This document shows, piece after piece, positions 4,145-62,752 of a stretch of DNA of 64,000 nucleotides. Each line of letters starts with the position of its first letter. The stretch's first letter is position 1. Under the pieces are notes generated by a model that was given only the letters and a program-made list of their open reading frames with translations, ran no database searches and was not told the DNA's origin. The stretch lies in the NCBI GenBank assembly GCA_026874595.1, contig CM049308.1, forward strand, positions 149,001 through 213,000. The letters run 5' to 3'. The position numbers and the translations under genes are program-made. The DNA comes from Sipunculus nudus (Eukaryota; Annelida; Sipuncula; Golfingiida; Sipunculidae).

Positions 4145-6664
4145 ACAAGGGACCCATGGGTCACGGCGCTCAGCTGAAGTTAGAAAAATTTTTGCAAATG
4201 CAAAATATGCAAAATATTTTATTGTAATGTTTTTCATTTATATGAGCATATGAGAAGCTAAGAGGAAGGGGCCCTCCTACTTGGTTATAGTGAAGTTCTA
4301 AAATATATAATTGCAAACTAATACTCTGACAAGACTGTCATGAAGAAAAACAGTTACACTTTTGAGATACTGTGATGCATATGAAAAAAATTACAGATGG
4401 ACAGGCAAGTGGACAGAATGGACTAATACCTTTATTTCACTTTCAAGAGAATAATGCATGTAAGTTTATATGTCAGTCTATTTTTTTAGCATATCAACTT
4501 TTTCCATTAATAGTTTTTATCTGATTCATTTTTTTTTATTTACAAGTTTTATAAATTTGTAATAAAAAACCTGAAAATATAAGTTAAAATATTAGAATTC
4601 TAAGTTGCAATCATTATATATCCAGAGTGTAGCTCATATTGGATCATATTATGCATACACGTATATTTTATTATTTTTAAATCAGAAATGTTTAAACTGA
4701 ATTTAAAAGAAAATAATGCCACAACATGGCATCTACAAGATTATTCCTTGAATCACTATTAAAAAGTTTTGCACATTGGAGTTTTCAGTACATGCTTAAT
4801 TTTATTCTCTGAATTGAAATAAAAGATTCAGTAAATTTGATAAAATAAAAACATCTATTCAAATAAAGTATACACACTGTTGGTTGAATGAGGACAAACA
4901 ATATCATTGTGCTAATTACTCTCTCAGCTATAATTTATTACTTGAATTAATAGTCAATTTCACACCTGGTGAAGTTTTTACTTTTCTTAAGTAAGGAATT
5001 ACTTATTTGATGAACATCCACACTTTCATACCAATACACCACTTTGTGGACACAATTCAATGTGCTCTTTAATCATTGTAACCCTGGTGGTACAATACAA
5101 AATCTAAAATGTAGCATAGCCAAGAATAAAATAAAATACAGAAAATTATAACATTCATCTAGTTGATGCACCATCTGAGGGGGGGGGGTGCAGGGCACAG
5201 AGGAAGCTTGCTAGTAGTGGCCAAGCTGAGCCAAGGCAAGCTGCCTGGGGTCAGTAGAGCCACGTTTTTTCCGTTTTAACGGAAAAACGGACGAAAAAAC
5301 GGAATTAGGGTTCAAAAACGGAATTAGGGTTAAAAAACGGAATTATATCAAATACACGGAATACGACGGAAAGTCAGATTTAGAGCCGATTTAAACTGCA
5401 AATTAAAAAAAATTCTCACCCAATATCTTATTAAAAAAATCTTTCAAACTGCGCATTACTGCATGTCATAGCGTCTCAGAGGCGAAATAGCTTTGAATAT
5501 AATATTACCATACTTGTTTCAAATGTTTGAAATGATAGACGGTAAAACGCAGACACTACAGAGCAGAGAACTTTCTTGCCGATTCAGTGAACACGCGCTG
5601 GATTACTTACGTGTGGGCCTGACAGAGAACCATTTATGCTGAGGACCAGGTATAATTTTAAATATACGTAAAGTAACTATGGCATCAATGTTAGCAGTAA
5701 TTAAATTTAAAATATTTTAAACAGCTTATTGAACATGTAATCCATTTAATCATCTGGATTTAAAAGTTTTAACTCTTAAGAAGATGTAGCAATTTTATTA
5801 CATAAAATATAAAGATAAAACGGAAAATTCCGGAATTTTGATTTTATTAAACGGAAAATAAATATTTATAAAACGGAAAAAACGGGGCTCTAGGTCAGTT
5901 ACATTATGCTAGTGAAGGCTGTACTACCAGGTGGGGTAGATGTACACAACACTTGAATAAAAGTTACTCTTTTCAATCAATTCCTTTGAAATTTCAGATT
6001 TTAAAAGATTAAATCCTTATGTATATATTTTGTGAAAATTAAATCAACAGTACTTACAGGGAAAAAACGTGCCATTGCCAAAGTTGGATAAAATTTAAGG
6101 TATTGATTTTTTATTTATGCTAATAACTTGACAAAATTTGCAAAATTCAGATCTAATTTTGGGTAAACAATTGAATCTTGATTAAATAAAGTTATATTCC
6201 TGAAAAAAAGTCGCCAGCTTCAGCAATTCTCATGTTAGGTGAGTAAATATATTTCCTGATTTTTTAAAAATTGCATTATATTTGGGCCCATAACTTCAAA
6301 ATAATACCCAATACTGACCTAATTTTTGGTATGTTCATAGAAAATGTATGGAAGACAATGAATACTAAATATGATCAAAAACAGATCAGTGGTTTTGATT
6401 TTAGGCAGCCTTGAAGTGTAACAATGGCTTTTTAATAGAAAACAGAGGTTTTTCCTTAATATCTCCAAGGAACGAAGTCCTAATGACCCAATTTTTGGTA
6501 TGGTAGGAGATTTTGGGGACATCTAATGGTAAGCAAAGTTTTGGATTCGTAGGTCCAACGGTTTTAAAATGTGCCCTGTTAACGGCTGGAGGGCCGGCCG
6601 GACGGATGACGGACAAAGGAGCACGACTATAGCTCAGATGACTTATAGTCAGTTGAGCTAAAAA
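4145..6664 (+). mobile_element. Family A element A1 (subfamily I)
   Basis: The 5' terminus is ACAAGGGACCCATGGGTCAC followed by GGCGCTCAGCTGA. The 3' terminus is a hairpin with TAGCTCAG and CTGAGCTA-type arms and a TAT loop, then AAAA. Just before the hairpin is a GACGGA-rich stretch. The element sits between CACACTTA and ATGGCAGACGGCGCC of a family C monomer with no target duplication. Its left 1 kb is closely matched by the minus-strand copy ending at 36207 and by the copy at 62943-64000. It contains a 638-bp MITE at 5255-5892 and no coding capacity. Confidence 0.75.
5255..5892. mobile_element. 638-bp hAT-like MITE with 6-bp target duplication
   Basis: The ends are TAGAGCCACGTTTTTTCCG and, inverted, TAGAGCCCCGTTTTTTCCG: terminal inverted repeats of about 24 bp. 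GGTCAG is duplicated at 5249-5254 and 5893-5898. The related element at 32979-36207 lacks the insert at the equivalent place (minus strand near 34450), confirming the boundaries. The interior has many AAACGGAA repeats near both ends and no coding frame. TIRs starting YAGRG are typical of hAT elements; the 6-bp duplication is shorter than the usual 8 bp, so the class is inferred. Confidence 0.7.
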
Positions 6665-7339
6665 TGGCAGACGGCGCCACCAGTCGGATGAGTACAAGAT
6701 GGAGGAGGCCAAAATTTATGAACATGCACGGTTTCAGACCAATACGGCACACCACTCCTAAGAAAAGAGCATTAATTTATCCTACAGAAACGGGAAGGTA
6801 GGTGGCGCCACCTGTCTAGTTTACAAGAAAATTTTCCAAGATGGATAGACATTCCTGATCAAGACCAACACCTTGAACCACTCCGGAGATATGAGCAATT
6901 TTCACCCAAAGCACATGTACAGATGGACGCCAAGGCAAAATGATTGCAGATGGCGCCACCAGTCTTGAGTACATGATGGAGGAGTCCAAGATCTATGGAT
7001 ATCCACAATTTCAGGCCAATAGGGAAATTCACTCCTCGGACACAGGCATTAATTTTTTTCTACAAAAACAGGAAGGTAGGTGGTGCCACCTGTCTAGTTT
7101 ATGAGAAAAACTTCCCAAGATGGATGGACATGCCAAATTTCAGACCAAAAACAATTGCAGATTGTGCCACCAGTCTTGAATGTAAGATGGAGGTATCCAA
7201 GCTCAATGGACATGCATAATTTCAGCCCAATCTGTCCATTAGTGTTTGTCCATTAGTACTGTCAAGTGGCAATGATGGGGTATTAAAAAGGACAAAAGGT
7301 GGCACCACCTGTCTTCCCTAGAAGTCAAAGCTATCCAAG
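6665..7339 (+). mobile_element. Family C3 element, middle fragment
   Basis: Four monomers carry a GGTGGCGCCACC-type core, for example GATGGCGCCACC near 6953 and the exact palindrome near 6801. It continues with GTCAAGTGGCAATGATGGGG, which is characteristic of family C, and is cut at 7339 by the hAT-type element. The sequence picks up again at 13919-13926 with the duplicated TATCCAAG. Confidence 0.65.
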
Positions 7340-8895: not shown

Positions 8896-11800
8896 ACAAG
8901 TGACACATGGGTCATGACGCTCAGCTGACTGGGAAGAGATTTGCAAAAGGAAATTTTATCATCTGAATGGTAGTATATACCCATTCAACTGAAGCATCAA
9001 ACAGATTAAAGAATAAGCCAAGATTGTATCTGAATTTATATATCTCAAAATATGAGAAAAAATGCGTAAACTTTAAAAAAAATACAGGTGGTTCCACCAG
9101 TCTGCAGAAACTAATAAAAACACTTAATGGTCAATATCCATGCAAAGAATCATAGTGATTTCTGCATTAATTGTTCAGATACTTCAGCTTTTGAATCAAA
9201 TTTTCCATTATTCTGAGGGATACTTCGGAGTCCTATAGCGTGAAGGATATGGGTAACAGAGACCTAATTTCAGATTTCCAAAGACACTCTCACGGGCCTC
9301 CTTGCATGACAAGAATGAAGATTCTAGGTCCAGTTGTTACAATTTGTGCCATGTTAACAGATGACAGCATCCTTAAAGGTCTCAAAAATAGAGAAAAAAA
9401 TTCAAAAAAATTTAATAAAATATAGGTTGCACCATAAGTCTGAAGAAACTGATGAAACACTCCATAATCAATATGCATGTAAAGAATCATGGTGACCTCT
9501 GCATTAGTTGGTCAGATACTTCAGCTTTTGTATCAAATTGTCCATTATTCTGAGGGATACTTCGGAGTCCTATAGCTTGAAGGATATGGGAAACAGAGAA
9601 CTAATTTAAGGTTTCCACAGACACTTTTCATGGGCCTCCTTGCATGACAAGAATGAAGATTCTAGGTCCAGTTGTTACAATTTGTACCCTGTTGACACAT
9701 AACCACATCCTTAAAGGTCTTAAAAATAGAGAAAAAAAATTGTAAAAATGTGTAACAAGCCCCATAGCTTGAAGAATATAGGTAACAGAGACCTAATTCC
9801 AGGTTTCTAGGGAGTCTGCAGAAACTGATGAAACATCTCATGATCTCTTTGTATGAAATTTTTGACTATTCTGGGGGGTACTTTGGGGCCCTACAGCATG
9901 AAGGATATGGGTAACAGAGACCTAATTTCAGGTTTCCATGGAGACTTTACATGGGTCTCCCAGTGTGTCAAGAATGAAGATTCTAGGTCCAGTTGTTATG
10001 ATTTGTGCCCTGTTAACAGATGTTCATATCTTTAAAGGTCTCAAAAATAGTGAAAAAAATTGGTAAAGAATCGAAAAATACAGGTGGCACCACCAGTCTG
10101 CAGAAACCTATGAAACACTCCATGATCAATATCCATGCAAAGAACCATGGTAATCAATGCATCAATTGTTTAGATATTTCAGTTTTTGTATCAAATTTTC
10201 AATATTCAGCGGGGGTACTTCAGAGCCCCATAGCTTGAAGAATCTGGGTAACAGAGACCTAATTCCAGGTTTCCAAGGAGACTTTTCATGGGCCTCCCCC
10301 AATGTCAAAAATGAAGATTCTAGGTCCAGTTGTTATGATTTGTGCCCTGTTAACAGATGACTGCATCTTTTAAGGTCTCAAAAATAGAGAAAAAAATTGT
10401 AAAAAATCGAAAAAATACAGATGGCGTCCGCAGTCTGCAGAAACTGATGAAACATCTCATGATTAATATGTATGCCAAAAATCATGACCATCAGTGATGT
10501 AGTTAATGAGATATTGAAGTTTTTGTATGAAATTTTTCACTATTCTGGGGGGTACTTTGGGGCCTCATAGCTCGAAGGATATGGGTAACAGAGACCTAAT
10601 TTTTGGTTTCCATGGAGACTTTTCATAGGTCTCTCAGAATATAAAGAATAAAGCTTCTTGATCCAGTCTTAACGATTTGTGCCCTGTTAACAGATGTCCA
10701 CATTTTTAAAGGTCTCAAAAATAGAGAAAAAAATTCGTAAAAAATCGAAAAATATAGGTTGCGCCACCAGTCTGCAGAAACTGATGAAACATCGCATGAT
10801 TAATATGTATGCCAAAAATCATGACCATCAGTGATGCAGTTAATGAGATATTGAAGTTTTTGTATGAAATTTTTCACTATTCTTGGGAGTACTTTGGGGC
10901 CCCATAGCTTGAAGGATATGGGTAATAGAGACCTAATTTCTAGTTTCCATGGAGACTTTTCATAGGTCTCTCAGAATGTCAGGAATGAAGATTCTAGGTC
11001 GAGTCTTTACGATTTGTGCCCTGTTAACAGATGTCCACATTTTTAAAGGTTTCAAAAATAGAGAAAAAAATTCATAAAAAATCTAAAAATACAGGTGGTG
11101 CCACCAGTCTGCAGGAACTGATGAAACATCTCATGATTAATGTGTATGCCAAAAATCATGACCATCAGTGATGTAGTTAATGAGATATTGAAGATTTTGT
11201 ATGAAATTTTTTACTATTCTTGGGGGTACTTTGGGGCCTCATAGCTTGAAGGATATGGGTAACAGAGACCTGATTTCTGGTTTCCAAGGAGATTTTTCAT
11301 GGACCTCTCAGAATGTCAAGTAACAAGATTCTAGGTCCAGCGGTTACGATTTGTGCCAGGTTAACGGACAGACGGACAGACGGACGGACAGACGGGAGGC
11401 ACGACGGACGGACGACGGACAAAGAGTGATCGCTATAGCTCAGATGACTTACAGTCAGCTGAGCTAAAAACTGATGAAACACTCCATGATCAATATCCAT
11501 GCAAACAATTATGGTGATCTCTGCATTAGTTGTTCAGATACTTCAGCTTATGTATCAAATGTTCCATTATTCCGAGCTGTACTTTGGAGTGCCATAGCTC
11601 TAAGGATATGGGTAACAGAGACCTAATTTCAGGTGTCCATTGAGACTTTTCATGGGTCTCCCTGTGTGTCAAGAATAAAGATTCTAGGTCAAGTCATTAC
11701 AATTTGTACTTTGTTGACAGATAACTACATCCTTAAAAGTCTCATAAATAGAGAAAAAAAAATTGTAAAAATTTGAAAAAATACAGGTGGCGCCACCAGT

Positions 11801-13150
11801 CTGCAGGAAATGATGGAACACCTCTTGATCAATATGTATGCCAAAAATCATGACCATCTGTGTTGTAGTTATTAAGATGTTGCAGTTTTTTTAAATCAAA
11901 TTTTCTATTATTCTGGGGGGTAATTGGGAGCCCCACAGCTCAAATGATATGGGTAACGGAGACCTTATTTCAGGTTTCCATGGAGGCTTTTCATAGGTCT
12001 CTCACTGTGTCAAGAATGAAGATTCTAGGTCCAGTCTTAACGATTTGTGCCCTGTTAACAGATGTCCACATTTTTAAAGACCTCAAAAAACAGAGAAAAC
12101 AATTTGTAAAGAATCGAAAAATACAGGTGGCGCCACCAGTCTGCAGAAACTGATGAAACATCTCATGATCAATATGTATGCCAAAAATCATGACCATCAG
12201 TGATGTAGTTAATGAGATATTGAAGTTTTTGTATGAAATTTTTCACTATTCTGGGGGGTACTTTGGGGCCCCATAGCTCAAAGGATTTGGGTAACAGAGA
12301 CCTAATTTCTGGTTTATATGGAGACTTTTCATAGGTCTCTCACTGTGTCAAGAATGAAGATTCTAGGTCCAGTCTTTACGATTTGTGCCCTGTTAACAGT
12401 TGTTCACATTTTTAAAGGTCTCAAAAATAGAGAAAAAAATACGTAAAAAATCTAAAAATACAGGTGGTGCCACCAATCTGCAGGAACTGATGAAACATCT
12501 CATGATAAATATGTATGCCAAAAATCATGACCATCAGTGATGTAGTTAATGAGATATTGAAGTTTTTGTATGAAATTTTTCACTATTCTGGGGGGTACTT
12601 TGGGGCCCCATAGCTCAAAGGATTTGGGTAACAGAGACTTAATTTCTGGTTTATATGGAGACTTTTCATAGGTCTCTCACTGTGTCAAGAATGAAGATTC
12701 TAGGTCCAGTCTTTACGATTTGTGCCCTGTTAACAGTTGTTCACATTTTTAAAGGTCTCAAAAATAGAGAAAAAAATACGTAAAAAATCTAAAAATACAG
12801 GTGGTGCCACCAATCTGCAGGAACTGATGAAACATCTCATGATAAATATGTATGCCAAAAATCATGACCATCAGTGATGTAGTTAATGAGATATTAAAGT
12901 TTTTGTATGAAAATTTTGACTATTCTGGGGGGTACTTTGGGGCCCAATAGCTTGAAGGATATGGGTAACAGAGACTTAATTTCTGGTTTCCAAGGAGATT
13001 TTTCATTGACCTCTCAGAATGTAAAGTTACAAGATTCTAAGTCCAGCGGTTACGATTTGTGCCAGGTTAACGGACAGACGGACAGACAGACGGACGACGG
13101 ACAAAGAGTGATCGCTATAGCTATGCATGACTGAAAGTCAGCTGAGCTAA
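8896..13150 (+). mobile_element. Family A element A2 (subfamily III) with two 3' ends
   Basis: The 5' end is ACAAGTGACACATGGGTCAT, followed by GACGCTCAGCTGA. Unlike a simple element it contains two complete 3' ends, at about 11469 and about 13150. Each has a GACGGACAGACGG-rich stretch, ATCGCTATAG and the terminal hairpin sequence (the second degraded: CTATGCATGACTGAAAG). After the first 3' end the sequence restarts inside a monomer (CTGATGAAACACTCC) rather than at a 5' end. Confidence 0.7.
9080..12990 (+). repeat. 337-bp tandem array of subfamily A-III
   Basis: The palindrome-type core is found at 9087, 10083, 10757, 11094, 11786, 12126, 12463 and 12800, mostly spaced 337 bp or multiples of it. 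Each core is followed by AGTCTGCAGRAACTGATGAAAC. Other fixed points in each unit are GGTAACAGAGACCTAAT, GATTCTAGGTCCAGT and GCCCTGTTAACAGATG. The units at 12126-12990 are nearly identical to one another, so the array has recently homogenised there. Confidence 0.85.
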
Positions 13151-13918
13151 TAAAACCTCGAGTTAAAGTGTGCATAATCACTATAATTCTAAAATGATTT
13201 TGATGTAGCCTTGAATTAAGGTATGCTTTTAACTTTGAGGAAATTTAATTAAACCAAGTCAGTTTTTCCAAATATTTGATTTTTTATGTGAAAATATTAA
13301 ACATGCCCTGCCTATATATATATATATAAGCCTAACTCATGAAATTACGCGTTTTTTTGTAAAGATTATAAAGTGCCTTGCAATCAGCAGTACCATGCAT
13401 ATCTCAATAGCTCTATTAGGTGTACCTGCTGTCATATGCGACAACAAGAGATGGAATTATAGATGTGACAAGGTATTTGTATGCGTTGAGAATGGAATAA
13501 CACCAAATAAAGTTTTTTTCCCAAGTTGAGTATAAAGTAATCATGAATTGTGTTTACATGAATGATGAAAGATCACATTATATGTGTATCCTGCATACTG
13601 CAGTTTAATCTGTTTTGGTTACAATATATTCATTTTATTCCTTTTTGTTCACTTCATAATGAAATATACTTGTTTGAACTTCGAGCGATCTGTTGATTTA
13701 CATTAGCAAAGATATGTTTGCTCTTTAATATGTGGAGGAAGAATTCCCTGCCAGTGAATCCATCCATATAATTGCGTTGCTGTCAAATACAAAACCTGTA
13801 ACAAGGATATTTGACATGATATGTTTCAATATATTATCCAGTTTTGTATAATGTTTTGTTAGAGGGGTGGCAATTTCTAAGACCGTCCCGGGTGGCAATG
13901 AGTCCAGGTACGCCGCTG

Positions 13919-17054: not shown

Positions 17055-17549
17055 ACAAGTGACCCATGGGTCATGACGCTCAGCTGACTGGGAAGAGATT
17101 CGCAAAAGGAAATTTTATCATCTGAAAGTTAGTGTATACCCATTCAATTGAAGCATCAAACAGTTTAACCAACAGGCCAAGATTGTGTCTGTATTTATAT
17201 ATCTCAAAAATAGAGAAAAATATGCGTAAACTTAAAAAAAATACAGGTGGCTCCACCAGTCTGCAGAAACTAATAAAAACACTTAATGGTCAATATCCAT
17301 GCAAAGAATCATGGTGATCTCTGCATTAGTTGTTCAGATACTTCAGCTTTTGCATCAAATTTTCCATTATTCTGAGGGAATTTTACTTCGGAGTCCTATA
17401 GCTCAAAGGATATGGGTAACTGAGACCTAATTTCAGGTTTCCACAGACACTTTTCATGGGCCTCCTCGCATGACAAGAATGAAGATTCTGGGTCCAGTTG
17501 TTACGATTTGTACCCTGCTGACAGATAACCACATCTTTTAAAATTTGAA
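17055..17549 (+). mobile_element. Family A element A3, left end only
   Basis: ACAAGTGACCCATGGGTCAT, then GACGCTCAGCTGACTGGG: the same 5' end and following 430 bp as A2 at 8896, with few differences. It has one array core (GGTGGCTCCACC near 17246). It stops where B2 begins at 17550, and the remainder does not reappear after B2/B3, so the 3' part seems to be lost. Confidence 0.65.
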
Positions 17550-20257
17550 ACAAGGCCTACAGGCCTAATGCCAACCTGTGCAAAGTTTAGGAGTATGAAT
17601 GGAGGTTTATTTTAAAAATTTAATATTGATCCTCTTAAGTCCTGCATATCTAACTTAGTCATTATGATTTCAGCAAAATGGACGTTTCCGACCTGTAAGT
17701 TTCAGACTGGGACATTTTAAAACCAGAATATGGGTAGTGGTCAAGCGACTGTGTATCCGCAGAAATCAGAGTGGGACGGGTGAAGTGAGGCATGGATTAA
17801 GTGGCAAGGGGAATAGAGTGAGGTGTGTTGCATATTAGCATGGATGTCTGCAGCTTAAACATGAATGTAGGTGGTGCCACCTGTCATAAAATCGAGGAAA
17901 TTGTCTAGGATGTATAAACCTGCCAAATTTCAGGTGAATAAGTCATACCACTGCTGAGATATGAGTGATTTTATCGCAAGGCAGATGAACAGATGGATGC
18001 TCTGCATAAATGGTTGCAGGATGCGCCACCAGTTTTGCCTACGGTGAAGAGCTATGTGAGATCTATACACATGCAAAATTTCGGCCCAATCGGTCAAATG
18101 GTTCCCCAGATATGAGCTTGGATGTCTGCAGAGTAAACCTGAATGTAGGTGGTGCCACCCATCATAAAATCAAGAGAGCTGCCCACGATGTATAAACCTG
18201 CAAAATTTCAGTTGGATAAGTCAAACCACTGCTGTGTTATGAGTGATTTTATCCCAAGGCAGATGAACAGATGGACGCTGTGCATAAATGGTTGCAGGTG
18301 GCGCCACCAGTTTTGCCTATGATGAAGAGCTATGTGAGATATATACACATGCAAAATTTCAGCCCAATTGGTCAAATGGTTCCTGGCATATGAGCTTGGA
18401 TGTCTGCAGAGTAAACCTGAATTTAGGTGGTGCCACCTGTCATAAAATCAAGAAAGCTATCCAGGATGTATAAACCTGCAAAATTTCAGGTGAATAAGTC
18501 AAACTACTGCTGAGATATGAGTGATTTTATCCCAAGGCAGATGAACAGATGGACGCCGTGCATAAATGTTTGCAGGTGCTGCCCCCAGTTTTGCCTACGG
18601 TGAAGAGCTATGTGTGATCTATACACATGCAAAATTTTGGCCCAATCAGTCAAATGGTTCCCCAGATATGAGCTTGGACGTCTGCAGAGTAAACCTGAAT
18701 GTAGGTGGCGCCACCGGTCATAAAATCAAGAGAGCTGCCCACGATGTATAAACCTGCAAAATTTCAGTTGGAAAAGTCAAACCACTGCTGTGTTATGAGT
18801 GATTTTATCCCAAGGCAGATGAACAGATGGACGCTGTGCATAAATGGTTGCAGGTGGCGCCACCAGTTTTGCCTAGGATGAAGAGCTATGTGTGATCTAT
18901 ACACATGCAAAATTTTGGCCCAATCAGTCAAACCGTTTCCGAGATATGAGCTAGGATGTCTGCAGAGTAAACGTGAATGTAGGTGGCGCCACCAGTCATA
19001 AAATCTAGAAAGCTGTCCAGGATGTATAAACCTGCAAAATTTCAGGTGGATAAGTCAAACCACTTCTGAGATATGAGGGATATTATTCCAAGGCAGATGA
19101 ACAGATGGATGCTGTGCAAAAATGGTTGCAGATGGCACCACCATTTTTAGTGTATGTTATAAAGCTATCAAAGGGCTACATTTGTGTAAAATTTTTAGCC
19201 TAATCGGTCAAATGGTTCCCGAGATATGTGGGTTTATGTGTGGAAACAGACGCACAAATGGATGCTCGGCAGCAAGGAAAGGTCAGAGGTCAACAAAAAA
19301 TGAGGGTGCAGCAGTTCACATGTGACCTGATGATAAACCCAATTTGCTTAAAATGCAAACCAAGTTTTTTCTAAAAGATATATTCCAATAATCTGGGAAT
19401 TCTGCATCTATACATTGTGTCCAGACGTCTAGACACTTTGTCTAGACATCCACCAGAGCCAGGTCAGTTGCCATGGTGATGTCTGGACCCCACCTGTTTG
19501 TACTGAGTGACCCCTTGACTTGGCTGCTGAAACTCAGCATGGGGTCAAATTTGTTTTCAAACACAGAGAGCCTTTTTCAATTGGCTACAATGCTTTTTTA
19601 AAGCTGTATTTACCCAATATATTCTTATAAAACTGGCAGAACCCTACCATAGAATAATTCTTGTAAAGTTTAAACCAACTAGCTTAACAGTTTCATCATA
19701 AATTAGGGTATAAGCTGGAAAAGTTTAAAATTACATTTTCGCTAGTAAAAAACATCAATGTAGTCGGCACCACCAATACCTCAATTTCAGGTATGACATA
19801 TGTGACAAACATTGGTATAAAATATATTGATGATAGCTCTAGCTGTTTCTGAGATTTTAATTTTAGTCTGCTTTTTTGACAGAAGACTAAGTTCAACCTC
19901 CTGTAAATCGGCCAAAAATCTCCAAACTGGAACCATTCAAACAAACTTGAGAGAGATTGTTTTTAAGGGATCATTTCTGTGAAATATTGGACAATTTGGC
20001 TGGACAATTTTGAAGAAGATTTTTAAAGCTTTTTTAGCTTTTTCCCTATAAAATCTTAGAAAATGCAGTTAGAAAAAAATAAACAAAATCCGATAGAGTT
20101 TTTCAGATGACTGATTATTTGCAAAAAATTTGGTGATGCTAGCTTCTGCCGTTTTTGAGATAGCTATGGTTAACGTACAGACGAGGCACGCCGCACAACA
20201 CACAACACATGACGGACGACGCCGCACAATCGCATAAGCTCACAGGTTCGCTAACAA
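17550..20257 (+). mobile_element. Family B element B2
   Basis: The 5' end is ACAAGGCCTACAGGCCTAAT, then GCCAACCTGTGCA. The 3' end at about 20257 is CATAAGCTCACAGGTTCGC followed by TAACAA. The 11-base subterminal sequence GCGAACCTGTG, as seen in B5, is the exact inverse of CACAGGTTCGC at this 3' end. The interior holds the 278-bp array and a region with AGCCAAAAATC-type repeats. No coding sequence. Confidence 0.72.
17753..19330 (+). repeat. 278-bp tandem array, second copy
   Basis: Core sites at 18019, 18148 and 18297 reproduce the 129/149 spacing of the array at 1-1290, continuing to about 19127. Several cores are damaged (GGATGCGCCACC at 18019; a degenerate one near 18575), while exact GGTGGCGCCACC occurs at 18297 and around 18703, 18853 and 18983. 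The terminal half-unit and the following GTGCAGCAGTTCACATGTRAC are shared with B1. Confidence 0.82.
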
Positions 20258-21999: not shown

Positions 22000-22043
22000 C
22001 CAAAAAATCCCTCCTGCCCTCAAATTAACTTCACAACATTTAC

Positions 22044-29780: not shown

Positions 29781-29819
29781 GGACACTAGATGTAATTACA
29801 GCTGAGAAACTGCATGATT

Positions 29820-47918: not shown

Positions 47919-48028
47919 GACACCCATGTGGTGATCACATGATACTCATGATGTGATCACATGCTACCCATGAGATGATCACATGCTGCCCATGAGGTGC
48001 TCACATGACACCCATGAGGTGATCACAT
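47919..48028. repeat. 22-bp minisatellite, five units
   Basis: Five 22-bp units, consensus close to GACACCCATGAGGTGATCAC plus AT, run without gaps. Four of the five carry the palindrome TGATCA; the fourth has TGCTCA. The array sits just after a B-type 3'-end-like motif (GCATAAGCTCACAGATTGGC). Confidence 0.88.
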
Positions 48029-48639
48029 GCCTTGTGCTTGGATGCACGGATTGAATTGTTGACCTATATTTGGCTGCACTGAATGAACTCTTGATCTGTT
48101 GCCAAATCTGAAACAATTAGCAGTTTCTCAACCTATTCAAGAAACATACACAATCTTGGCCTGTTATGTAACTCTGCTAAAATTTATCAAACACAAACCA
48201 TTTTAACTTACTTGAGAGGGCTCGCCTCTGGGATCATTTCTGTAAATTTCTAACCGTTTAGAAGAATAAGACTTTTAAAGTTTTTTTCAGCTTTTTCCCT
48301 GTAAAAATCTAAGTAAATACAGATAGCAAAAATAAGCTGAATCCATCAACATTAATTTTGTGACAGATAATTGCATAAAATTTGGGGATGGTAGCTCCTG
48401 CTATTCCTGAGAAATTAAGAGTTAGTGTACAGATGATATCTAATATCATAAATCTACATTTTAAAAAGCTTTTAAAAAACATTCTTGTTAATATTTTCCA
48501 TAGATAACCTTAAATCTAAATGTCTAGAGGCATGATGTAATGGATGCTGATAAACTGGTGCTAGGCTAGATGTATCTGCTTCACACAGCTAACATGTATG
48601 GTAAAATGACTCAATTCAATCTTTATAAATCAGCCAAAA

Positions 48640-49480
48640 TACATTCTTTGGAACCATAAAAGACAATTATTATAAGAATTATTCAGGAAATTATTCTTGC
48701 AAAATATTAAACAAACTGGCCTCAGTATCATCAGTCAAAAAACGTTTTGTAGTTTTATAACTCATATGGGAAAATACAGCAAAATGGCAAAGTTCAGCTT
48801 TCCATAATTCAGCCAAAAATCATTGAACCAAAACCATTTGAACAAACTTGAATTATCAACATCTAAGGATAACTAATTTGTGAGATTTAAGAATTTGGCC
48901 CAGTGGTTTTTGAGAAGAAGATTTTTGTAGCCACTTAGCTAACATGGGCTGTTATGGCATATGACTAAATTCAGCTTCCCGTAACTCAGCCAAAAGTCAC
49001 TGAACTGAGACCATTTGAACAAATTTGAATTATCAACATCTAAGAATAATTAATGTGTGAGATTTAAAAATTTGGCCCAGTGGTTTTTGAGAAGAAGATT
49101 TTTGTAGCCACTTAGCTAAAATGGGCTGTTACGGCATATGACTAAATTCAGCTTCCCATAACTTAGCCAAAAGTCACTGAACTGAGACCATTTGAACAAA
49201 CTTGAATTATCAACATCTAAGGATAATTAATGTGTGAGATTTAAGAATTTGGCCTAGTGGTTTTTGAGAAGAAAATTTTTTTAGCCACTTAGCTAAAATG
49301 GGCTGCTATGTCACATGACTAAATTCAGCTTCCCATAACTTAGCCAAAAGTCACTGAACTGAGACGATTTGAACAAACTTCAGAAAGCACTACCCTAGGA
49401 TCATTTCTGTGCGATATTAAACAATTTGGCCATATCGTTTCAGAGAAGAAGTTATTTGTAGACTTCAGTTTGATACAGGC
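48640..49480 (+). repeat. 177-bp tandem units in B5
   Basis: CAGCTT starts the conserved part of units at 48795, 48972, 49149 and 49326, exactly 177 bp apart. Each then has TAACTYAGCCAAAAGTCACT, ACCATTTGAACAAA and TTGGCCCAGTGGTTTTTGAG. Worn copies of the same units are in B1 at about 2690-3150. Confidence 0.85.
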
Positions 49481-50281
49481 ACTGATGACCCCCGTACAAA
49501 AAAGGCCGATGCAGGTGGCGCCACCAAAACCTCAATTTCAGATATGACTCAGGTGACCAAAATTGGCATAATATTTGGTGATGAAAGCTCAAGCCATTTC
49601 TGAGATTGTAATTTTAGTATGTTTTTTTGGACAGATGACTTAGTTTCTGTAACTTGGCCAAAAATCACCGAACTTAAACCATTCAAACAAACTTTAGAGA
49701 GATTGTTCCAGAAATCATTTCTGTAAAATATTGGACAATTTGGCTGAACAGATTCGGAGAAGAAGATTTTTTAAGCTTTTTTAGCTTTTTCCCTATAAAA
49801 TCTAAGAAAATGCAGTTAGCCAAAAAATAAGCAAAATCCAATAGAGTTTTTTAGATGACTAATTTTATGCATAAAATTTGATGATGCTAATTCTTGCCGT
49901 TTTCAAGATAGTATAGGTTAACATACAGACGACGGCCGACGGCCAACGGCCGACCGGACGATGCCACACCATCGCATAAGCTCACAGGTTCGCAAAAAAT
50001 TTGAAAAATTCAGAACTAATTTTGGGTATTCAATTGAATCTTGATTAAATAATGTTACATCCCTGACAAAAAAATCTCTAGCTTCAGCAATCCTCTTGTT
50101 AAGGGAGTAAATATATCTCTTGATTTTTTACAATGTGCATTATGTTTTGGCCCATAACTTAAAACAATTACGCAATACTGACAATTTGTGCCTGGTAAAT
50201 GGACGGACAAACAGACAGACTGACAATGGACAAAGAGTGATCACTATAGCTCAGATGACTTTCAGTCAGCTGAGCTAAAAA

Positions 50282-50948
50282 TGGTCTATAATTTTTTATA
50301 CTTTTTGGCATTTAGGCCCTCATCTCCAATGCAATCTTGTTTCCAATATAATAGTGTAACCATTGAAAACGTTCAGTTCTTTTTGCATGAAAATTACGCA
50401 TGCAGGGTGGCAGAATCAGGTATACAGTGAGCATGTGACTGAAGTGTGACTGAAGTGTGACTAAATGTTTGATATGAAAGTATGATGCATCTTTAGCTGA
50501 AAGGCAAATTTTGATCCTTGGTAAATGTATATCAGAGAATACTGTGACTTCCATCTTTAGTATGTTAATAGGATTAAAGTTCTTAACTTACTTTGTGGAA
50601 TACTCTTACCTGTGGATCCACTCCATTATGTTTTGATTTACTCATTTTCTCCCACTTGACCTCCAGGGCAGCACCACTGTCTTTCTCCACTGGGTGTTTC
50701 CCTGTGTTCAGGAAAAACAAAATTGACCTTTCATGCTAACAGAGCTAAAAATAGCAAGTCTCTTAAATAATTTTACTATCTTAACCATGCCACTTACAGA
50801 AGTTTGTCTTTTATTCTAAGACTACCTTAAATTCACTGAAAAGAGACTGAAAATCTCTTCCACAGTGTTTTTTTTTTTGTCCAGATCACCCCTTAAATGT
50901 ATTCCCTTTTTAACCTGTTTCAAATGGTTTTTGGATTCATAAAGAAAA
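50282..50948. other. Non-repetitive intron flanks of the KMSKS exon
   Basis: Between A11 and A12 there are about 670 bp without mobile elements, centred on the LARS2 exon. A short duplication (AAGTGTGACTGAAGTGTGAC) lies near 50440. Nothing else was recognised. Confidence 0.5.
50610..50701 (-). CDS. LARS2: LARS2 exon with the KMSKS loop (mitochondrial leucyl-tRNA synthetase, partial)
   Basis: This is an internal exon of a class I leucyl-tRNA synthetase of the bacterial/mitochondrial type, which charges mitochondrial tRNA-Leu with leucine. Read on the minus strand, two bases of a split codon are followed by 30 codons that contain [19 protein letters not shown] is the signature loop of class I synthetases that binds ATP and stabilises the adenylate transition state; the extended motif matches animal LARS2 (from memory). 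The acceptor is a pyrimidine-rich tract ending in ACACAG, and the donor is CAG|GTAAGA. The exon ends in phase 0 and joins exactly to the exon at 23282-23372. The preceding exon, which should carry the end of the catalytic domain, was not found at higher coordinates. Confidence 0.93.
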
Positions 50949-52815: not shown

Positions 52816-55272
52816 ACTAGACATTTATTGGCACCACAGGTGCCATAGTATCCCCAGACAATTAATCCCCCCCCCCCCTCAAGAATAGACCCCCATCTTC
52901 AGCAGCATATACTGACACTTGGCAAGCGACCATAGTTTCTTCCATCACATTGAACGACTCCTCAGATATGAACAATTTTCATCTTAAACAAATGTACAAA
53001 TTGACATTGCAAAAAATTGCATATGGTGCCACCAGTCTTAAATATGCCATTAAGGAATCCAAGATCTATGGACATGCACAATATCAGGCCCATATGGCAA
53101 ATCACTCCTGAGAAAAGGGCATTTATGCTCTGTCACACCAACATGCACACACCCGAACCTGCTCACAGTTATCCCATAATTAATCAGATACTTGATATAT
53201 CATTCATACCCATCCAGTCACTTGCTCTGTTCTCGGAAGTGCTGAAAGAAGCGCACAAGACATGGAATTGAGGGAAAAAACTCGCTGAGGTTTATTAAAA
53301 ATAACATTTAAATTTTCATATTCAACATATTCAACAATTACCCCTTCTTTCCCACTGACGAGAAGGTAGGGTACAACACGCCATATATATTGTATAAGTC
53401 ATACTAAAAGTAAAAGTAGTAGTAGTAAAAGTAAACAGTTTACACCTTGAAAAATATACTGTTTAGAAACAATAAACTTTAAAATTTTAACATTAACAAG
53501 TAGAACACAGAGTGCTTGAGTTGGTGGCGAAGGGGGTGGTGGTCGGTTTCTCTTCCAGATAGTACGTTGCTGGTTGTCGTTTTTCCTGACAGATGAATTC
53601 ACTGGTCATCGTTTCTCCTGGTACTAGGGGTAGATGGTTGCTGAGTCCTGGTTGAAGAGTGATCTTGTCCCAGCGCGGGCATGTCTTCTCAAACTGTTAT
53701 TGGCCGGTACTTACTTCCCGTTTGCAGTGCATTATGGTCGCCCAAAATCTTTCTTAATATAATATTTAATGGAGTTTTTAGTCCAGTTAGAATACGGATG
53801 GGGATGTATGTAACATATATTTACTAATCGTGACCCTTCTTGTCAAAGTGAGGGCCTCTGTAATCATTATTCAAAATCCAGCGATCTTGAACTTCCGCCC
53901 TCTTGTAAGCAGTGCCGCCATATTGGATATTCACCCTCTCCTAGTTAATTCCGCGTCTTCATGAACTGGTCTTACTGCAGATAAAATTAAACTACTTGTT
54001 TTAAATGAATCTGCTTATTTAGCAAGGTCCTCACCCTGCCGGCTTTGGATTTCCATACGGTAAGAGTACCAGATTTCTCAGAACACAGTGTTACCTTAAT
54101 TATTGCCCAGCGCCACCGTACTAATAATGATGTCCTCCCTCCAAGTATTCTCACTATTTATCAGGACAGTTTTTAACTCTGATTTTGGTTATCATTACCT
54201 TCTTTTCAACCAGGCAGGTCTTGGGCTTTAAATATTTGTGTATATACTAGTATTGTCCCCCCCCCCCCCCCCCCCCCCAGTATCATATCCTTTTATTGGC
54301 GCCCAACACACAAAACACTGATGATGTGGCGAGCATAAAATAATTATCTGCTAGGGGGCAGAGTAATTGTATTTATTTATACTATGAAAACGAGAAGGTC
54401 ATTTGTAACACCTGTCTGGTCTATGAGAAAACTCTCCAATATGGATAAACTTCAAAATTTCAGACTAATACATTGAACAACTACTAAGATATGAGCAATT
54501 TTCACCTAAAGCAAACCTACAGATGAACACCACACATAAACAATGCTCACAGTATTGTCAAGTGGATATGATGGGGTATTAGAAGGTGTAAAAACAAGAA
54601 AAAGACAAGAAGTGGCACCACCTGTCTTCCACAGAAGACAAAGCTATCCAAGATCTTTTGTCAATTTGATTTTTGGATCAATCCATGCATCCTTTATTGA
54701 GATATTAATGATTTTGTGTGATTTTCACCATGTATGGCAATATTCAAGGTCAAGGCCACTCTCACAGGGAAGGTCATAACCCCAATTTAAATATTCATTA
54801 TTCCATAACCCATGTCTATGTATATGCATAATATGAAAGAAATCTCTCCATAAGTTCTTTACTTGTAATGCTCACAGTAATGTCAAGTGGCAATGATGGG
54901 GGTATTAACGGCACAAAAAAACAAGAAAAGGATAAAAGGTGGCACCAACAGTTTCTGGTATATGACAACACTATCAAAGATATATTGTTCAACTTGATTT
55001 TTGGACCAATCAATGCCAGATTTCTTGAGATATTAAAGCATTTGTGTGATTTTCCCCGCAAATGGACTTATTCAAGGTCAAGGTCACTCTCCTAATAAAG
55101 GTCATGACCCCATTTTTAATAATAGGCTTCTTCTTCTCACCCATATATATGCACATGTCGAGTTTGCTAAAGATCTGTTGAAAAGTTTTTTGAGTTATCA
55201 CATCTACAAGAAATCTCTGCGGTGCCAGCGTGACCATGCTTAAACCATAGTAAATTTGTCTGGGGGATACAA
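52816..55272 (+). mobile_element. Family C element C2
   Basis: The 5' end is ACTAGACATTTATT, GGCACC-ACA-GGTGCC, ATAGTATCCCCAGAC, with a C tract at about 52868. The 3' end has TCTGCGGTGCCAGCGTGAC, AAACCATAGTA and GTCTGGGGGATACAA. Two C-type array units are at 54540-55250. Between the left arm and the array lies an unrelated block at 53131-54370. Confidence 0.75.
53131..54370 (+). mobile_element. LTR-like block with a tRNA-Lys-type primer binding site
   Basis: The block replaces a short stretch of C2 monomer. It begins TGTCACACCAACATG, a plausible LTR start. Near its end TGGCGCCCAAC (54297-54307) is identical to the 3'-terminal complement of tRNA-Lys used as primer site by many LTR retroelements. 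A run of 22 C's (54257-54278) precedes it. The LTR would be about 1.15 kb with only about 60 bp of internal sequence left. No second LTR and no gag or pol was seen, so this is a truncated element at best. Confidence 0.4.
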
Positions 55273-56204: not shown

Positions 56205-58654
56205 ACAAGTGACCCATGGGTCATGACGCTCAGCTGCCAAGCATGACCTGTGACATCATGGACTGAGATTCACAACTTCCAGTCAAATTTTTAAGAACCA
56301 ATTTGCCAATTTGTTGAAAATTTTCCATGACAACAGAAATATATATCACCTATGTCTGGTTAAAACACAGTGAATTGATGGTCTGAGGAAAATGCATGAT
56401 TGTTAAGCTATCAGGAACTATTCCAACAGCTTGCTTGAAACCTGTCAGTCTCAAAAGGAACACCACAAAGGGCAAATATAAGATCAAAATACTCATATAG
56501 CAAAAATCAAGGAAATACATGCAAGAATTATTGAGAAACAGGTGCTTCTGTATGAATTTTTATTCAATACAAGCCAACTGCACTGCACTTTTATAAATGA
56601 TGGTAATATCTATTCAGAAATATTTGACCCAATCCTTTACAAGATTACATAAATATACATCCAACTGCATTCACTTTAACTGTTCTTGAGATAATATGAT
56701 CAAAAGGAATTAAAAGATGGTTGCCTGGTGGCCATATTGGACTTCTGACAAGTCTGAAATCAGACAACAAACATTTTACTAAATCGGACCAAACATTAAA
56801 GAAAAATTACTGAAACTGCACTGAAGAAAGAATTTCTAAGGTGGTTAACTGGCAGACATAATGGATTTCTGACAATTATGACATTTGATATCCCACATTC
56901 TCCAATAAGAGACCAAACTTGGGGCAAATTATCCAGTAATGAATGCCTAAAATAATTCAAAAGGCATGTCCAGGCCCTCATATCAGATTTATAGATATGC
57001 AATTGTAAAAAGTGTAAGTCCAATATTTTTTATTATCACTCTGCTTTTCAATGGGGTCAGCAGGGTAGGTAAACTGCCAAACCTGAAAGAAAAGAAATGC
57101 AGAAAGCATGACTAAGAGTCTTGAAATAAAACAAAAAGCCATCCTAAATCAAGGTATACATCCACATATTATGAGAACAAACACTTGCTTTTATATGTGG
57201 TGATATATATTAAAATATTCAGATATCTAGGAAACTAAGTTTATTGCTAGGATTCCATAAAATAAACTGCAAAATGTTCCCATCATCTTATAAATCAGTA
57301 GCTAAACCTTAATACTATACTCTCATAGTCTTAATGCCTGGCTGAAGCATTCTGACAACAGTGTTTTTGTTATGAAGTAACGAGGTACTTATCACTGAGC
57401 CTTATCACTTAATAGGCTGATACAAAAGGGAGTCATATGTCACCAGTGTCATTCGAAATTACAGCCACACAGGGAGATGTACCAGCTGGAGTGGGATGGT
57501 TATATATACAAGAAAAATAGAGATGGTCTATAAAATAAGTAATTGTGAACATCCCTGACCTATGACCTTGGCCTTTTGCCCAGATATCAACTGGATTCTT
57601 TCTAAATGATGGGTAACTACTAACCACTTAAATCTGGTGTAATTACTTGGCAACCAATGGGTGAATAACTGTGACCTGCAACCTTTAACCTGCTGACCAG
57701 CTGACCCCAAAATCAATAAGTTATTTATTCAAGCAAAAAGACCCATAAATATGAAGTTTGAGTCAAACTGAGTGATGCATAGATGTGGCATATGTGAAAG
57801 ACTGAAGGTTTGGGTTGAACAGTTACACTTGAAATATGCTCACAAGCATTTAGAACAATTAAATATTGTGACCTTGACCTTTGACTTTTTGACCTCAACA
57901 TCAATAGGCTTCTTCCCTTATTGGTAGGTAAGCCATATATGACAGATGGAAGGTACAGATTGAAAAGTTTGCCTGAAAATGACTCCACGCAAGAAGTGGG
58001 TGCTGTGAACTTGACCTTTGACCTCAAAATCAACAGGTCCTTTCCCCTGTTGGCAGAGAAGCGATATCGGTGCTGGAAGGTTTGGAATGAAAATTCTAGC
58101 TTGAAATGTGTCCACAATCTTTTCAAAGAAGTGGATCCTGTGACCCTGACCTTTGACCTTGTGACCTATAAATCTATAGGATTCTTCTCCAACTTAGTAG
58201 GTGAGCTATATGTGAAAGATCAAAGAATTGGGATGAAACGGTTGGCTTAAAATGCATGCACAGGCTTTTCAAAGAAGAGGCTCCTGTGACCTTGACCTTT
58301 GACCTTTTGACCTAAAAAAAATTATGGTTCTTCCCCTGTTGGTAGGTGAGCTGTATGTGAAAGATGGAAGGTTTTGGATGAAAATTTTGTCTCAAAGAGC
58401 TATTTCTGGGGGGTGCAAACACACCCCATAACTTCGAGAATATAGGTCGCAGTGACCTAATTTCAGGTTTGCAAGGAGATCTTTTTATAACCTCTAAGAC
58501 TGCATAGGGTTCATGGCCCTAGCCCCTACGGTTATGATTTGTGCCCTGCTAACGGACTGACGACCAGCCGGCCGGCCGGCCGGACAGACGGAAGGACGAC
58601 GGACAAAGACCCATCGCTATAGCCCAGCATGACTGAAAGTCAGCTGAGCTAAAA
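56205..58654 (+). mobile_element. Family A element A14 with TGACCT-rich array
   Basis: The 5' end is ACAAGTGACCCATGGGTCAT, then GACGCTCAGCTGCC. The 3' end is CCGGCCGGCCGG, then GACAGACGGAAGG, ATCGCTATAGCCCAG, and GTCAGCTGAGCTAAAA at 58654. The interior holds a small duplication (GGCCATATTGGACTTCTGAC near 56730 and its relative near 56850) and the array below. Whether one element spans the whole interval is not certain. Confidence 0.6.
57530..58400 (+). repeat. Second TGACCTTTGACCT array
   Basis: Units of about 140 bp have GTGACCTTGACCTTTGACC-type cores near 57558, 57672, 57867, 58009, 58140 and 58287, with CTTCCCCTGTTGGTAGGTGA and GATGGAAGGTTTTGG between. They are clearly related to the array at 28500-29780 but belong to a different host element. 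Confidence 0.78.
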
Positions 58655-60215
58655 AATCAAAATTGTCCAAGTCTCAACAAAAAGAACTTTTTTAACATAA
58701 AAATTATAAGCTTTGTCTTGTATATTAGTCCTGTGTATCGAAGCGGTGGGTCAGGGATGGGTCTCTGTTGTTACTGTTCATCGCTGAAAAAATGTGAAAT
58801 TCTAAGAATCATCTTGTTTAGAGTACAGCTCTGTCAACAGAATGGTGTGGGGGGGGGGGGGGGAGAGAAAGGCTCCCTGTGGTATTTATGCTGGCAGCCT
58901 GATCAAGCTCAACAAGAGAGTGATGGGATTACATAACAGCCTGGGGAGCATAGAGAGTTGCACTGAATGACCTACAGTGACCTCAGTGGACTGCTTGACA
59001 ATGTAAGGGAATACAACAAGAGCCTCCAAACAAATTCAATAAATAGCCCAATTTTGTAGCTTTTAGTTTTCAAATTTCAGATTTTAACAGATTAAATCCT
59101 TATGTGTACATGCTGTGAAAATAACATCCACAGTACTTACAGGAAAACATCGTGCCGTGGCCAAAGTTGGGCAAAATTTCAGGTACTGATTTTATATTTA
59201 TGCTAATCACTTAAAAAAATTGCAAATTTCAGATCTAATTTTCGGTATACAATTGAATCTTGATTAAATGATGAAATATTAATGAAAAAAAGTCTCAGCC
59301 CTTCTTATGTTAAGTGGGTAAATATATGTCCTGATTTTTTACAAGGTGCATTATGTTTGGGCCTATAACTTCAACAAATTACGAATGCTGACCTAAATTT
59401 TGGTATGTACATATGAAATGTATAGAAGAATATGAATATTTACAATTACATCTAACATTATGCCAATTTTTGATTACCAGGTAAACAAAAGTAGGGCCAT
59501 GATGCTAGAAAATACAAATACATTAAGGCTTCTAAAAACTTCAATAGCTAGACTATTTTTTAAACTTATACTTTCAAATTCAAAATTCATCAGATTAAAT
59601 CCATATGTAAACTGGCTGTGATAATTAAATCAAATGTACTTATAAGAAAAAAACGTGCCATGGTCAAGTTTAGGCAAAATTTAAGGTATCAATTTTTTAT
59701 TTTTGCTAATATTTTAAAAAATTTAACAGATTTTGATCTAATTTTATGTATACAATTTAATTTTGATTAATTAAAGATATATTACTCGAAAAAAAGTCCA
59801 TAGCTTTAAAATGTTTTGTGTTAAGTGATCAAATATCTTTCCTGATTTTTTACAAAATGCATTATGTTTGAGCGCATAACTTTTTTAAAATCATACAATA
59901 CAGACCTAATTTCTGGCATGTACATGGGAACTATATAAAGGATATTTATGGTAAATATGAGGAAAAACAGGTGAGTGGTTTCGTAGTTAGGCTGTCCTGA
60001 AATGTGAAAATAGGTTTTTAATAAAAAATTGAGGTTTTTCCTTAATTTCTCAAAGGAACGAAGTCGCAAAGACCCCGTTTCAGCTTGGTAGGAGATCTTG
60101 GGGACATCAAACATTATGCCAACAACCTTGGGAGCATAGAGAGCTGCACTGAATGACCAACAGTGACCACAGTGGACTACTTGACAATATAAGGAAATAC
60201 AACAAGAGCCTCCAA
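58655..60215 (+). mobile_element. Family A sequence A15, lacking clear ends
   Basis: It contains a 17-G run (about 58847-58863), then ACAACAAGAGCCTCCAAAC and the right-half sequence typical of A5 and A8. A second copy of GGGAGCATAGAGAGYTGCAC to GCCTCCAAAC occurs at 60129-60215 and is interrupted by A16, so A15 is itself rearranged. Confidence 0.5.
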
Positions 60216-62752
60216 ACAAGGGACCTATGGGTCACGGCGCTCAGCTATTATATATGATAAAAAAGTATGATTTAGAAATGAGGCACATGCTGGTTTTATG
60301 TGGTAACAAAAATAAGCTGTATTATGATTTGTTTAGCTTATGTATGATTTTGATAGTACTTTGGAGACAGGAAAGAGGATTAATTTAATTTATTTTATTA
60401 ACAAATGGAGTGCAATTGTCACACAGATTTTGACTTGGCCATATAACTTATAAGCAGAACATATAATATAAGAGTTTAACTATTTATTAAAAAAAATTAC
60501 AAATATTGTCACAAATATAAGAGAATATTATGATTTTTTCAAATAAAATATGACTGAAATGATTATTAAAATAATATTAAAGAATATATTCATGAATGCA
60601 TTCATTAATACATTTTGAAAGTATTTGCACTGGTATTCATATACTTTCATTTTTCCCATTCTTATGAAAGAAATTTTATAATGGAGTACATATTCATATT
60701 CGTGTTTAAATACAATTGCAAAGTATTCGCACCATGTCTGGTATTTATTCAGTTTTCACCAAACAATGATGTTGAGAATCCAGAATATACAAAATTCACA
60801 CAATTAAATAATGATCATAAGTACCTGGTTTTATGGCTTTTATTTATATTAAAAAAAAAATGTAATATATTCACTTTGGACTAATTTCACATCAATAAAC
60901 TAAGTATAGACACAGTAGGAATCTAGATAATAATATTATCAACTGCATCATTGTCTATCATTAATTTCCTTCATATGATGCCTAATGATTAGTAATGAAT
61001 AATATGATTTACTTTTTTATCATTAAAATTGAACTGAAAAATACCATAGGTGACTGCATGGTGTTATTTGGAATACGTGACATTCTATCCGTCGATACAA
61101 GATTCTTATATCATCAGTAACTGCAAGTTAATTTCCTGTTATTATCAACTAACAAATTCCTTTTCTATTTTTCTTTAATTTGTTATTAAAAACCAATAAA
61201 AATTTATTAATTTATTGTTTATTGTTATGTTGTTGGTTAAAACTACTAGATGAGTTGGGTTGGACACCTGTATCAACTGTGGCTGGCCATTATATAATAA
61301 GCTGCCTGGAGCCCCAGTTTATGACTCGCCTCAAGCATGCATAATTTGCTAAAAGTTCAACAAGGTCAACATACAGGTGACTCAAGAGGTGCTACAGAGA
61401 GCCAAGGTCTGACATGGTCTCATAAAAACATTAATAAAAGCTACAATTTTTGGCCAATTTCTTTCAGCTTTTTTAACTAAAAAGTTGAAATCTTTATGTG
61501 TGCATGATATGAAAATTATATCAACAGTGCTCACATGAAACAAACATGCCATGGTCAAAGTTGGGCAAAATTTAAGGTACTAATTTTATATTTATACTAA
61601 TAACTTATAAAATTTGAAAAATTCAGAACTAATTTTGGGTATTCAATTGAATCTTGATTAAATAATGTTACATCTCTTGACAAAAAATCTCTAGCTTCAG
61701 CAATCCTCTTGTTAAGGGAGTAAATATTTTTCTTGATTTTTTACAAAGTGCATTATGTTTGGGCCCATAACTTAAAACAATTACGCAATACTGACATCAT
61801 TTCTGGCATGTTCATAGAGAATGTATAGAAAAATATGTATATTATATATGATTAAAGTCAGATCAGTGGTTTTGATATTAGGCAGTCTTGAAGTGTAACA
61901 ATGGGTTTATAATAGAAAAATTACGTTTTTCATTAATATCTCGAAGGTATTAAGTCCTAGTGACCAAATTCTTGGCATGGTAGGGGATTTTTGAGACATC
62001 TAATTGCATGCCAAATTTTAGGAACTGAGAGCTGAAGCTGGGGAGCTGAGCACTTGCAAACTGCATGACACTAGCTTGATGTAAACAATATGTTACATGG
62101 TGCTTGAAAACTTCTACAGTTTTTGATCAACTGGTTTAAAATTTTCGGTGTTTACAGACAAAATGCTAAAAAAAACATGCTTAGAAAATTAAATCCACAG
62201 TACTTACAGGAAAAAAACGTGCCATAGTCAAAGTTGGGCAAAATTTAAGGTACCAATTTTTTATTTTTGTTAATATTTTAAAAAATTTAAAAGATTTTGA
62301 TCTAATTTTGGGTATACAATTTAATTTTGATTAATTAAAGTTATATTACTGGAAAAAAAGTTTATAGCTTTAACATATTTTGTGTAAAGTGATCAAATAT
62401 CTTTCCTGATTTTTTACACAATGAATTATGTTTGGGCCCATAACTTTTTAAATTTACATAATACAGACATAATTTCTGGCATGTACATAGGAACTATATA
62501 GAGGCAGTCCTGAAGTGTGAAAATAGGTTTTTAATAAAAAATTGAGGTTTTTCCTTAATTTCTCAAAGGAACGAAGTCACAAAGACCCAGTTTTGGGCTT
62601 GGTAGGAGTTCTTGGGGACATCTAACATTATGCCGAATTTTGGATTCCTAGGTCTTACGGTTTCAAAACGTGCCACATCTACGGACAGACGGACGGACGA
62701 CGGACAATGGACCACAACTATAGCTCAGATGACTTATAGTCAGCTGAGCTAA
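60216..62752 (+). mobile_element. Family A element A16 (subfamily II), intact
   Basis: The 5' end is ACAAGGGACCTATGGGTCAC. The 3' end is GACAGACGGACGGACGACGG, then the hairpin and GCTAACAAGG. At 2.54 kb it closely follows A9, but with a shorter GGAC tract. Use with A9 as the reference copies for the subfamily. Confidence 0.82.

Follow-up and report, generated by a model that had tools for sequence, protein, structure and literature searches.

HINEs, the non-autonomous Helentrons, have a distinctive published layout in which a 5' subterminal repeat is followed by internal satellite-like repeats, a second subterminal repeat and a 3' palindrome, and they insert into a T-rich target without duplication (PMC4067079, PMC7492417). 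That several unrelated HINE families can coexist in one genome with one layout is already known from the Pacific oyster, where 11 Cg_HINE elements have been described (PMC7492417). Here we analyse four such families, A to D, in a 64,000-nucleotide stretch of the peanut worm Sipunculus nudus (assembly GCA_026874595.1, contig CM049308.1, positions 149,001 to 213,000; hereafter the window, or C3:149001-213000 in our numbering of the contigs). The unrelated families share one orientation within a region, and that orientation apparently follows host transcription.

Two other systems bear on how such an orientation might arise. Helraiser, which transposes through one strand of the element, has a preference for expressed genes and can cut DNA only when it is single-stranded; transcription or replication was suggested as the source of such DNA, its authors proposing transcription-driven melting (PMC4778049). 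The bacterial IS200/IS605 elements move by HUH-type single-strand transposition, carry subterminal hairpins and take their orientation from the exposed host strand (PMC5371812). The oyster elements are described only as lying in both orientations, with no regional or transcription-linked orientation reported (PMC7492417), and no earlier report of Helitrons or Helentrons aligned with transcription or replication was found in the open-access literature.

Ends, hairpins and targets of families A to D

An earlier note on this stretch had described four families of unrelated sequence with matching ends, and the families are confirmed as real and present genome-wide. When the exact patterns of palindrome plus subterminal sequence were counted across the 1.43-Gb assembly (17 chromosome-size contigs), family A gave 12,736 matches, B 4,364, C 847 and D 119, split about evenly between the strands over the whole genome, while the same patterns written backwards gave 0. 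In the window, every 5' signature, in the sense in which the note read the elements, lies where it was claimed: A at 4145 and in 12 further + copies with one reverse copy ending at 36203, B at 17550 and 46300, C at 39928 and 52816, and D at 23777. The A palindrome GACCCATGGGTC occurs 14 times with up to two mismatches against 1.3 expected. Inverse subterminal repeats stand at the opposite ends of A (TCAGCTGAGC), B (CACAGGTTCGC) and D (GGCGGGGGCAT), and that of C is near-exact and sits within a CCAGAC/GTCTGG hairpin. For two families, the window carries minority variants: the commonest B palindrome genome-wide is AGGCCT-AC-AGGCCT, where the window copies have -AT-, and the commonest C loop is GCA, where they have ACA.

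Relative to the published convention, the four families had been drawn back to front. The supposed start, AC(A/T)AG followed by a palindrome, is the reverse complement of a HINE 3' end, in which the palindrome is followed by CT(T/A)GT^TT (^ marking the element boundary). Since the 5' end as first read would be the canonical 3' end, the "matching 5' hairpin" that had seemed a novelty beside the 3' hairpin becomes an artefact of backwards reading, namely the known 3' hairpin itself; this polarity is taken from the match to published anatomy rather than from an autonomous copy. Below, the canonical strand is the HINE sense and the reader strand is the opposite one, on which the elements were first read.

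In canonical sense, the elements begin T^(T)AGCTCAGC..., a start that carries the 5' subterminal repeat and forms hairpins in A, C and D, and continue with a GTCC microsatellite, satellite-like repeats, the second subterminal repeat, the short palindrome and CT(T/A)GT^TT. Family A reads TT^TAGCTCAGCTGA-hairpin-(GTCC)n-repeats-TCAGCTGAGC-GACCCATGGGTC-CCTTGT^TT, and B, C and D end in CTTGT or CTAGT. The ACGG arrays adjoin the A ends that are 3' on the reader strand, and tandem arrays of 177-337 bp lie inside elements. Subterminal inverted repeats of about 11-15 bp are found near both ends of all four families, and the palindromes stand 3-14 nt ahead of the TT flank, before CT(T/A)GT; in mite HINEs the palindrome lies about 8-35 bp from the 3' end (PMC4067079).

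In A, C and D, the subterminal repeat at the end away from the palindrome forms one side of a long hairpin. DNA folding gave the canonical 5' ends of A and D, which are unrelated in sequence, the same shape (8 bp/1/5 bp/3-nt loop) with z-scores of -4.6 and -5.2, a related hairpin for C and no such hairpin for B. Three of the four families therefore share a structure at the canonical 5' end, and at the opposite end, where the palindrome may act as the 3' transposition terminator, all four do.

Empty sites were recovered for two insertions. Paralogues of the family A copy that the C element (39928-42210) interrupts read TTGATTAAATAATG, which gives the empty site cleanly as TTGATTAA^ATAATG. The reverse A element (32979-36203) is missing from paralogues at 37340-37420, 43330-43440 and 60470-60590, in which the T-rich run is unbroken. 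Both indicate a TT target and no target duplication.

Judged by sequence, the shared layout is that of HINEs, which bears out the earlier assignment: published elements have the same inverted repeats in subterminal position, the palindrome near one end, an ACGG/GTCC microsatellite, internal repeats of satellite type and a TT target that is not duplicated (PMC4067079, PMC7492417). The Cg_HINE elements share with A to D a subterminal repeat with an adjacent complementary inverted repeat, a GTCY/GTCC microsatellite, satellite-like repeats, a far-end subterminal repeat with palindrome, and a TT target without duplication, and differ in their sequences (PMC7492417). Mite Helentrons and HINEs and Drosophila DINE-1 likewise have subterminal inverted repeats, a 3' palindrome and a T-rich target, but the mite subterminal repeats are themselves palindromic (PMC4067079), and A to D come without a linked autonomous partner. 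Helraiser resembles the families in its 3' hairpin with a tetranucleotide at the very end (CTAG, against CT(T/A)G here), in its lack of duplication, its head-to-tail junctions and its preference for transcribed genes, whereas it lacks inverted repeats and its target lies between A and T (PMC4778049). The traits of canonical Helitrons (5'-TC start, AT target, no inverted repeats) do not fit families with subterminal inverted repeats and a TT target; nor do those of cut-and-paste miniature inverted-repeat transposable elements (terminal inverted repeats and target site duplication), as the repeats are subterminal and the empty sites free of duplication.

Orientation along chromosomes and relative to genes

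The near-uniform orientation of the window copies was absent from the earlier note. Self-similar pairs in the window are 90% direct (513 against 54 inverted), and among about 15 A elements a single one runs the other way. Nesting and head-to-tail joining, as at 27381/27382 and in a D array on contig C9, account for part of this; in the latter (C9:17322106-17326274), four D ends in one orientation are spaced 1380, 1380 and 1382 bp apart, head to tail, as for rolling-circle concatemers. The pattern also extends over long distances. On contig C1, ends come in blocks of one strand: + for all of the first 31 from family A (0.06-1.14 Mb) and the first 16 from family B, then - for those that follow, and so on. 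Family A forms 16 such runs, where shuffling gives 35±3. Within 50 kb, the closest copy from a different family matches in strand in 60 of 64 cases, or 43 of 47 when the first 1.2 Mb are excluded. A null in which the strand labels were rotated with their runs preserved (5,000 trials) gave 33±5 for the 60, with a maximum of 52. Agreement between families is still 88/98 at 10-50 kb and drops toward chance by about 200-400 kb. Unrelated HINE families are hereby shown to share orientation within a region, and because they agree at long range, beyond nesting and head-to-tail joining, some host feature must set the strand.

For gene strand, splice-donor motifs (AAGGTAAGT) with unique context on C1 served as a proxy, after filtering out a minisatellite and a donor-like motif inside family B that had swamped the signal. 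Where the nearest HINE was no more than 10 kb away, its reader strand was opposite to the donor motif in 10 of 12 cases. For distances of up to 25 kb the count was 26 of 39 (permutation p=0.024), and for up to 50 kb it was 40 of 61 (permutation p=0.011). Such proportions are roughly those that would arise if one motif in three were a true donor. Sixty of the 61 donor-motif sites were then fetched and their open reading frames of at least 30 aa (36 plus two alternative frames) scanned against Pfam with the HINE strand disregarded. This identified six genes, namely ATG7, a plexin (two exons), CFAP58, MMS19, a 3'-5' exonuclease and a cation (Ca-)ATPase exon, all six opposite to the reader strand of the nearest HINE. 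The same holds for an EGF-domain exon at C1:36.26 Mb with a C element 5 kb away, and the mitochondrial leucyl-tRNA synthetase exon of the window (50610-50701, -) likewise runs with the canonical strand, which brings the agreement to eight of eight genes with identified exons (p=0.008). Plexin (+, HINE read as -) and CFAP58 (-, HINE read as +) lie 96 kb apart, and the HINE strand flips with them. Given the eight concordant genes and this flip, the canonical HINE strand apparently runs with host transcription. Six further exon-like stretches, called by eye, fit the same rule and were excluded from the count; PDB searches of five of them returned nothing usable.

A minisatellite with a 58-bp period and about 80 copies (C1:1041358-1046204) lies beside the ATG7 exon. 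A + frame for the histone H3 N-terminus (positions 819-1055 of fetched locus L002, C1 ~92.2 kb) lies among HINEs that are all reader-plus; ending abruptly within the fold, it looks like a degraded copy, and as a live gene it would contradict the strand rule. A LINE (long interspersed nuclear element) motif was rejected as a non-HINE control for its tandem arrays and too few independent copies, leaving no good negative control, and a kinase motif was dropped as too rare. The arrays with the LINE reverse-transcriptase motif occupy C1:3701915-3753834 and C1:3996178-4073569, one of them with a period of about 10.4 kb and six copies.

Insertion, selection and replication

The reading that we prefer, though we regard it as evenly poised between right and wrong, is that A to D, as HINEs, are mobilised by Helentron Rep/helicase and insert co-directionally into single-stranded DNA exposed by transcription. 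Helentron proteins would mobilise the families as non-autonomous rolling-circle elements, with the HUH nuclease transferring a single transposon strand into target DNA that would have to be single-stranded. In the germ line, the exposed strand would be the coding (non-template) strand of transcribed genes, laid open by R-loops or by negatively supercoiled DNA behind the polymerase. If the top strand of the transposon were joined into this strand, every copy would therefore be co-directional with transcription. In IS200/IS605 it is replication that sets the exposed strand (PMC5371812); in A to D, it is apparently transcription.

The genome holds many Rep reading frames of Helentron type. The Helitron Rep domain has 143 matches, some in open reading frames of more than 2,000 aa, and at least 25, most of those fetched, are of the GSPH type (EFQARGSPH, with S between G and P), the signature given for Helentrons, whose Rep stands alongside HINEs there as well (PMC4067079). 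Fetched loci L009-L038 hold many apparently intact Helentron-type frames of 1,600-2,400 aa with an OTU protease and DUF6570 ahead of Rep, and three representatives that were tested have all three domains. Because the frames seem intact and some are 99% identical between chromosomes, recent activity is suggested. An autonomous relative with A to D ends, which the earlier note had proposed to look for, was not recovered: none of 30 fetched Rep loci has such ends as its own within ±1.5 kb, the absence of A ends being judged by BLAST. A D end in L036 was rejected as the end of that Helentron, being a separate D insertion into it, and in two near-identical copies the shared sequence runs past the fetched flanks so that their ends were not reached. 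The window itself has no PF14214 match to Rep/helicase coding. The suggestion that one machinery recognises structure rather than sequence is plausible and fits the A and D hairpins, but sits less well with family B, which lacks the internal hairpin, and with the failure to recover an autonomous element.

Several points weigh against transcription-guided insertion. No A to D element with a Rep gene was found in those loci. The need for single-stranded DNA would apply to the target only, since Helraiser donors must be double-stranded (PMC5876387). The link to transcription comes from eight genes only, with the nearest HINE up to 49 kb off, and the HINEs flanking the Ca-ATPase, both about 50 kb away, disagree in strand. 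The correlation between HINEs reaches about 200 kb, beyond typical gene length. Finally, selection could contribute, as the reader strand of the window HINEs is richer in ATTAAA (67 against 28).

Selection is the main rival. Both orientations would insert, and copies whose A-rich reader strand is transcribed would be purged for their polyadenylation and splice signals, an explanation also given for transposable-element orientation bias in mammalian introns (PMC3088655, PMC3517506). The ATTAAA excess speaks for it, whereas AATAAA is balanced (48 on the reader strand against 53) and the strand actually transcribed has more GTAAGT than the other (12 against 4). The counted copies have perfectly conserved ends and hence are not the oldest, and their 60/64 agreement is far above the intronic biases known from mammals. 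Selection seems on balance unlikely as the source, though it yields the same orientation map as insertion into single-stranded DNA, and the two are not separated here.

Replication is improbable. HINEs would enter the lagging-strand template at forks, as do IS200/IS605 elements, whose orientation recapitulates replication direction (PMC5371812), and where forks run with the genes, the coding strand is the lagging template, so that HINEs would come to agree with genes. The domain scale of 50-200 kb would suit this, yet the strand follows individual genes within 100 kb (plexin and CFAP58), and forks would need to be co-directional with nearly every gene. Left chromosome ends were predicted to be + and right ends -, while the left ends of C2 and C4 are - and the right end of C1 is + for family C; this is a weak test, with sparse HINEs and few informative ends among 29 chromosome-end samples. 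That nesting and rolling-circle concatemers alone amplified same-orientation copies is very improbable: the nested elements of the window, the 27381/27382 junction and the four D copies at 1380-bp spacing on C9 attest to such events, but unrelated families agree over tens to hundreds of kb, beyond adjacent copies, and the 88/98 agreement above 10 kb contradicts it.

Elements of the window and meaning of their orientation

Table 1. HINEs and host coding sequence in the window; HINE strands are in canonical sense.
Feature	Coordinates	Strand	Remarks
Family A HINE	4145..6664	-	ACAAGG+GACCCATGGGTC+GCTCAGCTGA at 4145 (5' end on reader strand); hairpin/TCAGTTGAGCTAA at 6640-6664
Family A HINE, two 3' (reader) ends, 11470 and 13153; ~337-bp tandem array	8897..13153	-	
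Family B HINE(s), 5' (reader) end 17549, 3' ends 20251 and 21614	17549..21614	-	
ORF with exon-like stretch VLRWQGRIWSL..., CAG acceptor, GTAAAT donor	22023..22256	-	sequence reading
Family D HINE, 3' (reader) end a long hairpin of A-like geometry	23777..25483	-	
Family A HINE, head-to-tail with next copy	25493..27381	-	GAGCTAAAAACTAGTGACC junction at 27381/27382
Family A HINE	27382..29922	-	
Family A HINE, sole clearly reversed A of the window	32979..36203	+	flanks give TT empty site
Family A HINE	37046..39694	-	88% to 60214-62755 over 2680 bp
Family A HINE, split by family C insertion	39695..43365	-	
Family C HINE	39928..42210	-	empty site in paralogues 44526, 61661
Family A HINE	43366..45722	-	91% to 37368-39694
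Family B HINE within family A copy 45723-50281	46299..50004	-	
Host exon, mitochondrial leucyl-tRNA synthetase	50610..50701	-	splice sites both sides; TIGR00396 E=9.6e-5
Family C HINE	52816..55270	-	
Family A HINE	56206..58655	-	
Family A HINE	60217..62755	-	
Family A HINE, continues past window edge	62944..64000	-	

The exon-like stretch near 22 kb, whose reading frame had no protein family match, probably belongs to the same gene as the synthetase exon. A genome search with TIGR00396 matched bacterial contigs only: on each of C61, C62, C66, C69, C72, C89 and C133, a leucyl-tRNA synthetase gene of bacterial type is present at full length and without interruption, with near-equal scores for six of the seven, so that the assembly holds bacterial genomes, either symbionts or contaminants. 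The canonical strand of family B has a conserved CAGACTNAAGGTAAGTTTGATG, a perfect splice-donor-like site, for example at about 47.6 kb of the window (-) and in loci L039-L067; it would lie on the strand transcribed in host introns and could feed exonisation.

The regional orientation hints at how HINEs choose their landing sites. It is quite possible, if slightly doubtful, that the strand laid open by germ-line transcription is almost the only one into which elements mobilised by Helentrons integrate, and that the direction of this transcription in each part of the genome is preserved, as a strand-specific fossil record, in tens of thousands of HINEs. If true, such a near-absolute rule, held by four families and thousands of copies, would answer from sequence alone the question of target-strand choice in eukaryotic rolling-circle transposons. 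It would also explain swarms of HINEs that point in the same direction. Should selection be responsible instead, the families would represent an unusually strong case of orientation-dependent purging; should the insertion rule be true, HINEs would provide a marker of germ-line transcription direction for any genome rich in them.

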